Source: a virus. Taken from it: DNA of 41,023 nucleotides. Location: IMG/VR virus record IMGVR_UViG_3300011126_000165, positions 1 to 41,023 of that record; one strand, given 5' to 3'. This document shows positions 4,149 to 38,083 of this stretch, in pieces. Every line of letters begins with the position of its first letter. Positions within the stretch are counted from its first letter, which is position 1. The translations under genes were made by a program, and so were the position numbers. A model generated the notes under the pieces. That model was not told the origin of the DNA. It did not search any database and saw only the letters and a list, made by a program, of their open reading frames with translations.

Positions 4149-4176
4149 AAAAAGAGACTCTTTGGTCTCTTTTTTT
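4149..4176 (+). terminator. Intrinsic terminator of first early operon
   Basis: AAAGAGAC (4151-4158) pairs perfectly with GTCTCTTT (4165-4172) across a 6-nt loop and is followed by a T-run to 4176. It is a classic rightward rho-independent terminator. Confidence 0.9.
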
Positions 4177-4186
4177 ATAGTTTTAC

Positions 4187-4218
4187 AGAGTAATTGTATG
4201 TGAAATTTTTATTACTCT
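4187..4218 (+). other. Inverted repeat upstream of the tRNA
   Basis: AGAGTAAT (4187-4194) and ATTACTCT (4211-4218) form an 8-bp stem with a 16-nt loop. The 9-mer GAGTAATTG at 4188 recurs exactly at 4448 in the second hairpin of the downstream RNA, so the two could exchange pairing partners. No T-run follows. Confidence 0.5.
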
Positions 4219-4279
4219 CTAAAGTTATATATTATGAGTTAAATTATATGATTTTATCTCACATAGCTTTATTTTTTAT

Positions 4280-4373
4280 GGAGAATTGGCTGAGATGGGT
4301 TAAGGCACTATTTTGCTAAAGTAGCGATGTAATTAAAAAGCATCCAAGAGTTCGAATCTCTTATTCTCCTCCA
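4280..4373 (+). tRNA. tRNA-Ser(GCU)
   Basis: The 7-bp acceptor stem GGAGAAT/ATTCTCC pairs fully (4280-4286 with 4363-4369). The anticodon stem CTATT/AGTAG carries a loop with GCT at its centre, reading AGC and AGU. There is a long class II variable arm, as in tRNA-Ser, and a T-arm AAGAG-TTCGAAT-CTCTT. CCA is encoded (4371-4373). The discriminator base is T, where bacterial tRNA-Ser normally has G. It probably supplements translation of AGU/AGC codons in the AT-rich phage. No promoter is obvious directly upstream. Confidence 0.9.
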
Positions 4374-4384
4374 CTAATGTTAAA

Positions 4385-4479
4385 AAAGCTTTTTATAGAG
4401 CAGGTTGTTTCGTCCAGTTTCTCCCTGTTCTATAAAGGGCTTTAGCCGAGTAATTGAAACTGGACACTTCAATTTACTC
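4385..4479 (+). ncRNA. Candidate structured RNA with kissing hairpin loops
   Basis: Hairpin 1: TTTATAGAGCAGG (4392-4404) pairs with CCTGTTCTATAAA (4424-4436), 13 bp with one G-U, extended outside by AAAGC/GCTTT (4385-4389 with 4439-4443). Its 19-nt loop contains GTCCAGTTTC (4412-4421). Hairpin 2: GAGTAATTG (4448-4456) pairs with CAATTTACTC (4470-4479), with one bulged T. Its 13-nt loop contains AAACTGGAC (4457-4465). The loops are complementary over 9 nt, or 10 if the closing G is used. The element starts 11 nt after the tRNA 3' end and finishes 30 nt before the antirepressor gene. It could be a free RNA cut from the tRNA transcript, or a leader controlling the antirepressor. I do not recognise a known class. 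Confidence 0.6.
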
Positions 4480-4509
4480 CCCTTAAATATTATTGTCTGA
4501 AAGTATAAT

Positions 4510-5196
4510 ATGAAAAATCTTATTCAGATTCTACCTGCTTTAATTGGTTCAGAAAATATTAATTCTGTAAATTCACGTGATTTGTATTCGTCTTTAGAGC
4601 TTGGTAAAGGTCAATATTTAAGATGGATAAATAAAAATCTAGTAGATAATGACTTTTTCTATGAGAACAAAGATTACATTAGGGTTCGACAAGATGTCGA
4701 GGGTAATCAAGTAGAATCTTTTGTTGTTTCTCTTGATGTTGCAAAACATTTATCTATGATGTCAAAAACTTCTAAAGCTCACGAATTTAGAAACTACTTT
4801 ATTGAAGTAGAAAAAGAATCTAAACAACCTAAAACAGAGCTAGAACTTATTATTCAATCTGCACAACATATGCAACAAATACAACAAAAACAAATTATAC
4901 AAGATGAAAAACTTTTAATTGTTGAAGATAAAATTGATTTTCTTGAAAATAAAAGCCCTGTATCTTATAATCAATTAAAAGCTTTAGAAGATAAAAGAAA
5001 ATCTAAAACAAGAGAATTAGTAGGATACGATACTTCTAATGCTGTTTCAGTTGAAAACTACAGTAAAACTATTAGGATTTTAACAAAAAAGTTTAAAGAT
5101 AGATTTTGTATTGCTAGATATGCTGATCTTCCTAAAGATAATTTTAGTGATGCAATGAGTTGGCTAAATGATATTAGCTTAGTAGATTTAATTTAA
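4510..5196 (+). CDS. Antirepressor, AntA domain plus ORF6C-like domain
   Basis: This 228-residue protein has an N-terminal AntA/AntB-type domain (residues about 18-100), with VNSRDLYSSLELGKGQYLRW, then KDYIRVRQ, then AKHLSMMSKTSKAHEFRNYF. A Gln-rich coiled coil follows (110-145), and the C-terminal part resembles ORF6C. Phage antirepressors of this build inactivate or replace a repressor and promote lytic growth. A CI-type HTH protein is encoded at 35642-35869, a plausible partner. The ribosome site is weak (GAAAG), and the structured RNA ends 30 nt upstream, so post-transcriptional control is plausible. Confidence 0.85.
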   Translation: MKNLIQILPALIGSENINSVNSRDLYSSLELGKGQYLRWINKNLVDNDFFYENKDYIRVRQDVEGNQVESFVVSLDVAKHLSMMSKTSKAHEFRNYFIEVEKESKQPKTELELIIQSAQHMQQIQQKQIIQDEKLLIVEDKIDFLENKSPVSYNQLKALEDKRKSKTRELVGYDTSNAVSVENYSKTIRILTKKFKDRFCIARYADLPKDNFSDAMSWLNDISLVDLI

Positions 5197-36169: not shown

Positions 36170-38083
36170 TTAATCTTCTTGAATTTGTAAATTTAACCCT
36201 GTTTCGCTTTGTATTACTCTTATTGCTGCTAGTTGATAGCCTATAAGGTCTAGGGCTTCATTTCTTGTGGATGTAGTGTTTTTTACATATGTTCCTTCTA
36301 GTATTCCACGTTTATTTATTTTAAAAACTTTTTTTTCTGATGTGATTTGCTCAAACCATTCTAGGTCAAAAGATTTATTATGATGAATGAAACCATTCTC
36401 ATGCGGCTGTTTAGCTAGTCTCTCAAACACTGTATCTTTTGCTTTTGTAGTTGCCACCCATAGAATCTTATCTTTTTCATTTTGTGTTGTTTTAATTTGT
36501 CCTATTGGTCTTGCATCATTTGTTTTTACTTCTTTATCATCTCCTTTTAGCATTAAAAAATCTTGTGGATTTGCCCTTACAAATTTTTTAACATAATCTG
36601 TTCTTTGCCCTGCCATATCTATAAACCCTCTAAAAATATAAACAGCCCTATTTGAACTTGTGTATAATTCTGTATTTTTTATTTTAAGCAGTTCATCCCA
36701 TACAAACTTATTTTCTGGATCACCCATAATCTTCCCTGCTTTAATATTATACGATGTTTCGCCCTCACACCATGCAGTTATAAGGTATTCTAGTCTGTCA
36801 TTTTGTGTATCTACTGTCATCAATAACACTTTTGCATTTTCTGGCACATGTTGATACTCTTCTGCTGCATCCATTAGAGTATTGGTATCTAATTTGATAT
36901 TTTCTTCTTCAAATGTTTGTCCCAACCATGTATTATAAAAGGCTTTCATTTTTCGTGAATTACCTATTGCCTTAACAAATGTATCAGACATATTAGCCCA
37001 TGTTGTTGTAGGTTGATATGACAAACCAGCCCATATATAATATCCTCTTTTTTTTCTACCATTTCTATTATATTCAGCTGTTTTATTACAAGTTTTACAT
37101 AGAGCTTCACCGTTTTTAGAATCTGTAATATCATCTTTATTGTAATACCAGCTTCTATTATCTGTTGGTTTTTGCCACTCACCACAACAATAAAAGGGCG
37201 CAGTTTGATACCATCTCCCAGCCTTATCAAGTTTCTTTTTTTCTTTATGCGGGATTCTAGTTTCGCAGTTTTCACATAACATATAAGCAGTATTTGTTAA
37301 GTGAACCTTTACACCTTCCCTATATTCTTTATCCCACCTAATATGCTTAAAAAAATCTAGTGCTTGCTCGTATTGGCAATGTGGACATTTCCAATATCTA
37401 AATCGTTGATCAGTTTCATTAAATCTTATCTCTGTAAGGTCCTGACCTTTAATCGTAGGAGTTGATCCTATTACTACTTGACCATTCCAATACGACTCAG
37501 TTCTTTTTTTTCCTAGTTCATATGGATCACCTTCTCCATCAACATCATGAGGAAATCGTGAAAACTCATCAAAGATAACATCTTTTGCAGTTGCAGAAGC
37601 ATAATTATTTGCAGACACTCCACCACGGGAAGAAATATATCCACCAATAAAAGATTTTTTATTTAAAGTGTCCGATTCTCTATCTCTAATAATCTTGTCA
37701 TTTACGCACTTCATATCCCTCACAAGAGGTTTAAACTCATCTTTCGACCAATCAGTCGCTTTCTTATCGTTTGGATGAAATATAAGCGTTGTGGCTGGGT
37801 TTTCTGCTATATTATATGCAACCTTGAAGTTTATCATTTTAGTATAACCAATACGAGTTGATTTTAAAAATACAATCAATTCTATCTCATCATCTGTTAA
37901 TGCAATAAGTGGTTCTTCTTGATATGCGAAAGGTACAAATCTTCCAGTAACCGCTGAACCTTCTGGTGATAGATAACCTTCTACTTTTGCAAACTCCAAT
38001 CCGTTTATTTTTGGTTTTGGTTTTAGTTCACTAAGTATAAGACTATATATAGATAGTTGTTTTTTATTTAGTTCTGCTGACAT
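36170..38083 (-). CDS. Terminase large subunit, lambda gpA-like
   Basis: The 637-residue protein (lambda gpA has 641) has the ATPase part with the deviant Walker A KSTRIGYTK (74-82) as in gpA, Walker B DVIFDEFSRF (168-177), and a zinc-binding insertion with CPHC (about 236), CENC, a CCG and CKTC pairs. The nuclease part opens at VLLMTVDTQNDRLEYLI (about 420). It cuts concatemers at cos and drives packaging. gpA-type terminases make staggered cos cuts, agreeing with the 12-bp terminal repeat. Confidence 0.95.
   Translation of the reverse strand: MSAELNKKQLSIYSLILSELKPKPKINGLEFAKVEGYLSPEGSAVTGRFVPFAYQEEPLIALTDDEIELIVFLKSTRIGYTKMINFKVAYNIAENPATTLIFHPNDKKATDWSKDEFKPLVRDMKCVNDKIIRDRESDTLNKKSFIGGYISSRGGVSANNYASATAKDVIFDEFSRFPHDVDGEGDPYELGKKRTESYWNGQVVIGSTPTIKGQDLTEIRFNETDQRFRYWKCPHCQYEQALDFFKHIRWDKEYREGVKVHLTNTAYMLCENCETRIPHKEKKKLDKAGRWYQTAPFYCCGEWQKPTDNRSWYYNKDDITDSKNGEALCKTCNKTAEYNRNGRKKRGYYIWAGLSYQPTTTWANMSDTFVKAIGNSRKMKAFYNTWLGQTFEEENIKLDTNTLMDAAEEYQHVPENAKVLLMTVDTQNDRLEYLITAWCEGETSYNIKAGKIMGDPENKFVWDELLKIKNTELYTSSNRAVYIFRGFIDMAGQRTDYVKKFVRANPQDFLMLKGDDKEVKTNDARPIGQIKTTQNEKDKILWVATTKAKDTVFERLAKQPHENGFIHHNKSFDLEWFEQITSEKKVFKINKRGILEGTYVKNTTSTRNEALDLIGYQLAAIRVIQSETGLNLQIQED

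Follow-up and report, generated by a model that had tools for sequence, protein, structure and literature searches.

A two-hairpin element upstream of a phage antirepressor gene that looks like part of an undescribed RNA family

The stretch of phage DNA that separates a tRNA-Ser gene from an antirepressor gene was predicted to hold an RNA of two hairpins that are joined through their loops. Is this fold more than a chance pairing in AT-rich DNA, is it shared by other phages, and what would it do to the gene that it precedes? The window (the whole stretch of DNA that was analysed) is a 41,023-base viral record of a tailed phage. Its host probably belongs to the Campylobacterota, as suggested by the relatives of its antirepressor and dUTPase and by its AT-rich DNA. 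The large terminase (36170–38083, minus strand) shares only about 29% identity with the terminases of known phages, for example the Vibrio VHML group, and terminase comparison did not reveal a close relative of the window phage.

Two complementary hairpins behind a tRNA gene

On the plus strand of the window, an intrinsic-terminator-like hairpin (4149–4174) ends the upstream operon and is followed by a complete tRNA-Ser (GCT) gene with an encoded CCA (4280–4373). The antirepressor gene (4510–5196, plus strand), which encodes the domains AntA and ORF6C, is preceded by a weak ribosome-binding site, GAAAG (4499–4503), that is present in most relatives. The element is located between these two genes on the same strand, 11 nt from the tRNA and 30 nt from the antirepressor gene. 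Both spacings agree with the original prediction, and the latter corresponds to the position of a C4-type RNA.

The first hairpin, H1 (4385–4443, plus strand), is supported by its fold, its homologues and compensatory changes, and is a candidate C4-like antisense RNA. Its loop of 19 nt (4405–4423) is as predicted, but the stem is formed by 20 continuous base pairs including three G–U pairs rather than by 13 bp with an outer extension of 5 bp. The second hairpin, H2 (4448–4479, plus strand), is the candidate target and is supported by its fold and homologues. It has a stem of 6 + 5 pairs with one bulge and a 9 nt loop (4459–4467), and it follows H1 after a linker of only 4 nt, not 20 nt as had been proposed. 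Segment b in the H1 loop (GTCCAGTTTC, 4412–4421) is exactly complementary to segment b′ (GAAACTGGAC, 4456–4465), which extends from directly beneath the H2 loop into it. The complementarity expected of a kissing loop is present: seven of the ten pairs would run from loop to loop, and the remaining three would open the top of H2.

The two hairpins and their loop–loop complementarity are real and go beyond chance. The element has a minimum free energy of −34.8 kcal/mol (z = −5.33), and none of 200 shuffles is equally stable. For the pairing between the H1 and H2 loops in the window, the computed energy is −11.3 kcal/mol. A descriptor scan of both strands finds this architecture once in the window, and it is absent from all 600 dinucleotide-shuffled windows when a 13 bp first stem, a 7 nt loop–loop match and a 5 bp second stem are required. 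The folding z-score and the shuffled windows bear out the earlier view that three such helices are unlikely to arise by chance.

Comparison with Rfam 15, which had been suggested as a check, returned the tRNA as the only match at the gathering score, both in the window and in the relatives described below, and in the window lax thresholds gave nothing beyond chance-level matches. The statement that the element matches no known class of RNA therefore holds for covariance models. It does not hold for the layout, which the element has in common with C4, the antisense RNA known from phages P1 and P7. The suggestion of a switch controlling lytic entry fits an element on the leader of an antirepressor.

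Homologues, compensatory changes and loop specificity

BLAST searches with the element against phages and plasmids and against 104 Arcobacteraceae genomes gave only short noise. The terminase and dUTPase, used as guides to related phages, led to no close relative carrying the element, and a search with the exact stem pattern found no match. As BLAST was without result, a covariance model (R3) was built from the window element alone and searched in 56 of the viral loci encoding related antirepressors. Strong matches were obtained for L165 (E = 4e-12), L183 (E = 1.5e-10), L163, L164, L161, L188 (twice) and L156. Further elements were found with R3 in L237, L240 and L244, and a pattern scan added L236 (113.7 bits), L240 and L241. 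The covariance-model search that had been advised thus recovered homologues from a single sequence with E-values down to 4e-12. In 399 Campylobacterales genomes, R3 found nothing at E = 0.05 with strict filters.

These homologues, which lie in viral contigs, are mostly placed directly upstream of AntA-type antirepressors. A pattern derived solely from the ribosome site and the sequence that follows H2 matched seven contigs, six of which have H1 upstream, and contributed L252 (36.9 bits) as its sole new member. The seventh, L251 (a contig of 235 kb), is without the element and was taken as a chance match.

The closest homologue, L236, is identical to the window at 94 of 107 positions, and eight of the 13 differences constitute four two-sided compensatory changes. 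Two of these are in H1 (C–G to T–A and G–C to A–T), one is in H2 (T–A to A–T) and one is in the loop–loop helix (T–A to G–C), so that compensation is seen in all three helices in which it was sought. Two of the other differences are one-sided and retain the pair, one breaks a pair in H1 and two are at unpaired positions. The L236 record (IMGVR_UViG_3300042271_000342), whose contig ends 2 nt before H1 and which may be incomplete, has no match to the large terminase of the window, and together with the near-identity of the element this suggests that the module moves between phages. Elements are also found in front of genes that are not recognised as antirepressors, in L240 and L241 (a 148-residue protein), L163 and L164 (a 187-residue protein), L252, L237 and L244. 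The 148- and 187-residue proteins have no match to a Pfam or PHROG family.

Next, the specificity of the loop pairing was analysed with 13 sequences in 11 groups, scoring each H1 interior against each H2 loop in every combination, with loops aligned by rule and by eye. Each cognate pair scores higher than any non-cognate one (mean 10.8 versus 5.6), and none of 20,000 permutations reaches the observed sum. This and the other permutation tests assume independence of the 11 groups, an assumption that holds only approximately for related members. Examples of b/b′ pairs are GTCCAGGTTCT/AGAACCTGGAC in L236, GTCTAGGCTCT/AGAGCCTAGAC in L165, GTCACGTCT/AGACGTGAC in L240, TCCCAAGC/GCTTGGGA in L156 and TGCCTAT/ATAGGCA in L188a. 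Three phages carry two elements with different b loops: L188 (1344–1462 and 2294–2408), L240 (2472–2580 and 4763–4878) and L237 (4230–4345 and 8397–8506). This comparison of members shows H1 and H2 as conserved hairpins in which b and b′ are kept complementary and specific to each other.

The members occur in a short and a fuller form. In the fuller relatives (L163, L183, L188, L156, L240a and L241), inspection by eye reveals a small hairpin inside the H1 stem with b in its loop, followed by a second segment, a, while its complement a′ precedes b′. The nested order is thus b, a, a′, b′, and 611 of 20,000 permutations match the a/a′ pairing. In the short form, represented by the window, L236, L165 and one of the L240 elements, a and a′ are both absent and only b/b′ is left, with b lengthened to 10 nt in the window.

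A second subfamily was found among the leaders of related antirepressors, at loci L013, L043, L046, L065, L069, L071, L073, L074, L075, L148 and L153. These belong to three Campylobacterales genomes, one of which is a Candidatus Thiovulum, with several copies per genome that mostly lie upstream of antirepressors. Segment b (UUACCAGU or UUACCAAGU) is in the loop of a small hairpin and b′ (GAAACUGGUAAC or GAAACUUGGUAAC) is in a target hairpin. The segments a and a′ are hypervariable yet complementary, with a different pair in each copy, and copies or part-copies of b are found near the start codon. This subfamily is not in Rfam. Two models built from it, R1 and R2, do not match the window element, and R3 matches the subfamily weakly (L043, E = 0.025). 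The b′ strings of the window and the second subfamily resemble each other weakly, 43 of 3000 shuffles being as good, and L183 appears by eye to be intermediate between the two groups. A common origin looks likely.

The ribosome site, the 5′ edge and the proposed mechanism

The H2 loop has a second candidate partner, d′ (TGTCTG, 4494–4499, plus strand), suggested by covariation and energy. In the window, UGGACA of the H2 loop (4461–4466) can form a pseudoknot with UGUCUG directly next to GAAAG, a weak pairing with two G–U pairs and −5.2 kcal/mol. Among the members this pairing covaries (0 of 20,000 permutations), and in the relatives the two sides vary jointly: UUGACA/UGUCAG, UUCGACA/UGUCGGA, UUGGGA/UCCCGA, UAGGCA/UGCCUA and UGGACA/UGUCCA. 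Across the members, the H2 loop retains its complementarity to d′, which lies shortly before the ribosome site.

On balance, we favour a role of H1 as a C4-like antisense RNA that would keep the antirepressor mRNA from forming a pseudoknot by which its translation is controlled. Its target would consist of H2 and the next 30 nt in the antirepressor leader. In the free mRNA the H2 loop would pair with d′, and the resulting pseudoknot beside the ribosome site would let ribosomes start, as in the rep leaders of IncI-type plasmids. The H1 loop would compete for the H2 loop such that the pseudoknot does not form, the antirepressor stays off and the prophage repressor holds. The different loops among phages, and within one phage, would then define distinct immunity types, like those of P1 and P7. 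The weak d/d′ pairing in the window, the negative promoter scan for the tRNA and the elements in front of genes other than recognised antirepressors count against this reading.

The same pairing could also be read with the opposite sign, with d/d′ hiding the ribosome site and H1 freeing it upon binding to the H2 loop, which would make H1 an activator of the antirepressor. In most members d′ extends up to GAAAG or includes its first base, where pairing could block the site. In both L188a and L188b, however, d′ is well upstream of the ribosome site (AAAGG), which pairing would leave uncovered, and the known C4 and IncI-type antisense RNAs repress. An activating H1 is thus improbable in our opinion.

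In phage P4, CI RNA acts by transcription attenuation through pairing with the nascent leader. H1 could in principle do likewise and cause early termination before the antirepressor, as it occupies a same-strand leader position from which it could pair in antisense with the growing transcript. However, a terminator scan finds no terminator-like hairpin between H2 and the antirepressor gene, and the loop's other covarying partner is located at the ribosome site, an indication of translational control. We therefore consider attenuation very unlikely.

A more serious competitor to the antisense reading, although still an unlikely one, is a leader switch that acts purely in cis. Pairing of H1 with H2, or refolding within one transcript, would set translation without any free RNA and would perhaps be gated by tRNA processing. 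H1 and the gene are on one strand with no terminator between them, and the minimum-energy fold of both L236 and L244 is a long b/b′ hairpin in cis. A further refolding is offered by AAGGG in the 3′ arm of H1 (c, 4435–4439, plus strand) and CCCTT after H2 (c′, 4480–4484, plus strand), which pair in the folded window sequence when the 5′ arm of H1 is removed. The covariation of c/c′ is nevertheless only modest (293 of 20,000 permutations), the trans-acting C4 has the same layout, and the diversification of loops between close relatives and within one phage suits specificity in trans.

How would a free H1 be made? The original prediction placed the RNA in connection with the tRNA, but as a defining trait this link does not stand, as most relatives have no tRNA nearby. 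The exceptions are L161, L163 and L164, where a tRNA of a different type is located about 100 nt upstream. The family does not depend on the tRNA. In L183, both L188 elements, L240a and L241, a TATAAT-like −10 box (six of six matching positions, or five of six in L240a) ends within about 2 nt of the start of the element, so that the transcript would start at the base of H1. The window has the 3′ end of the tRNA in place of this box, and no −10/−35 promoter for tRNA-Ser passed the scan. With only 11 nt between tRNA and H1, H1 is most simply made within the tRNA transcript. The tRNA-Ser is a probable 5′ processing handle: H1 would be freed from the tRNA precursor by tRNA 3′ processing, which in the window appears to replace the promoter of several relatives in setting the 5′ end of H1.

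Inverted repeats that interleave next to a tRNA gene could also indicate a DNA element, either an attachment site in the tRNA gene or a hairpin for replication or recombination. The tRNA gene is complete, and 104 Arcobacteraceae genomes contain no match to it at E = 1e-6, which argues against an attachment site; with the tRNA missing near most relatives, the attachment site was rejected. The three G–U pairs in H1 and the covariation of the pairing with the ribosome site further disfavour a function as DNA, which we regard as barely credible.

An H2-like inverted repeat (GAGTAATTG...TTACTCTC) is observed between the terminator and the tRNA (4185–4222, plus strand) and has the 9-mer GAGTAATTG in common with H2. 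Model R1 matches it with 12.2 bits, which is at chance level. The repeat may be the remnant of a target or may belong to the promoter region of the tRNA; in P1, too, a putative second target of C4 precedes C4.

Relation to known systems

Taken together, the loci look like an undescribed RNA family acting as locks on the awakening of phages, with a fit that is kept by matching mutations. A joint reading, which we advance tentatively and with slightly less than even confidence, is that of an undescribed superfamily of phage immunity RNAs in which a C4-like antisense hairpin on the same strand and a ribosome-site pseudoknot of IncI-like kind compete for one hypervariable loop. The loops would give rise to many immunity types, the module would move between unrelated phages and precede further kinds of gene besides antirepressors, and the window phage would have adopted a tRNA as a processing handle. 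Detailed work on C4-type immunity RNAs has, to our knowledge, centred on P1, P7 and N15, and we know of no C4 with a pseudoknot switch at the ribosome site. The covariation shows a separate family, absent from Rfam 15 and carried by phages probably of Campylobacterota, for which such a switch is a candidate. The loop sequence alone predicts which phages should cross-react, and the members can seed a model for annotating antirepressor leaders that are now read as empty DNA.

GOLLD and ROOL are tRNA-associated phage RNAs of many hundred nucleotides that may lie near phage tRNA genes and contain loop–loop contacts. The element shares with them the proximity to a tRNA and the loop–loop contact, but in the window it is short and has no Rfam match.

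The antisense RNA C4, which is processed by RNase P, acts on the immunity operon of the phage and controls ant (PMC5320573). In the P1 annotation, C4 (48343–48419) is followed by its targets a2 (48423–48429) and b2 (48452–48459). Like C4 of P1 and P7 (RF01695), the element is a short RNA structure that directly precedes an antirepressor operon on its own strand, with a loop segment that is antisense to the leader and a few loop bases that carry the specificity. The fuller relatives resemble P1 C4 further in having two segments with their targets in the same nested order. Unlike C4, the window has one hairpin and one pairing segment in place of two segments and the three-stem body (stems P1, P2 and P3), of which the relatives show stems P1 and P2. 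The target loop of the family is also paired to the ribosome-site region, and a tRNA or promoter is present at the 5′ edge where C4 has its RNase P site. A further difference from C4 concerns the icd-like coupled leader frame, which is not convincingly found in the window and is not conserved in the second subfamily. RF01695 has no match in the window even at a lax threshold and none in the relatives; in 150 Campylobacterales genomes nothing exceeds its cut-off, and the two best weak matches are in tRNA clusters. The element is thus outside the Rfam C4 family, yet by analogy it appears to work like C4.

According to the account of Ravin et al. (1999) that is cited in PMC4488713, the antirepressor AntA of phage N15 is controlled by a small processed RNA. 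The likeness to our element lies in a small RNA that would control an AntA-type phage antirepressor, and the N15 operon contains icd, unlike the window.

The closest counterpart of the second pairing is found in IncI-type plasmids, where a single loop is the antisense target as well as one half of a ribosome-site pseudoknot (PMC8383071, PMC10724649). Translation of repZ requires this pseudoknot, and the antisense RNA blocks it (PMC8383071). By gene and strand the element is not an IncI-type system: the plasmid antisense RNA is transcribed from the strand opposite to its target and controls a replication gene, whereas in the window b is upstream on the same strand and the gene is an antirepressor. 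As in the rep leaders of IncI-alpha, IncB and IncK (Inc RNA, ColIb-P9 repZ), the loop that is the kissing target also pairs upstream of the ribosome site, and the two pairings that compete for the loop in IncI-type leaders are arranged in the same way in the family, with a weak d/d′ in the window.
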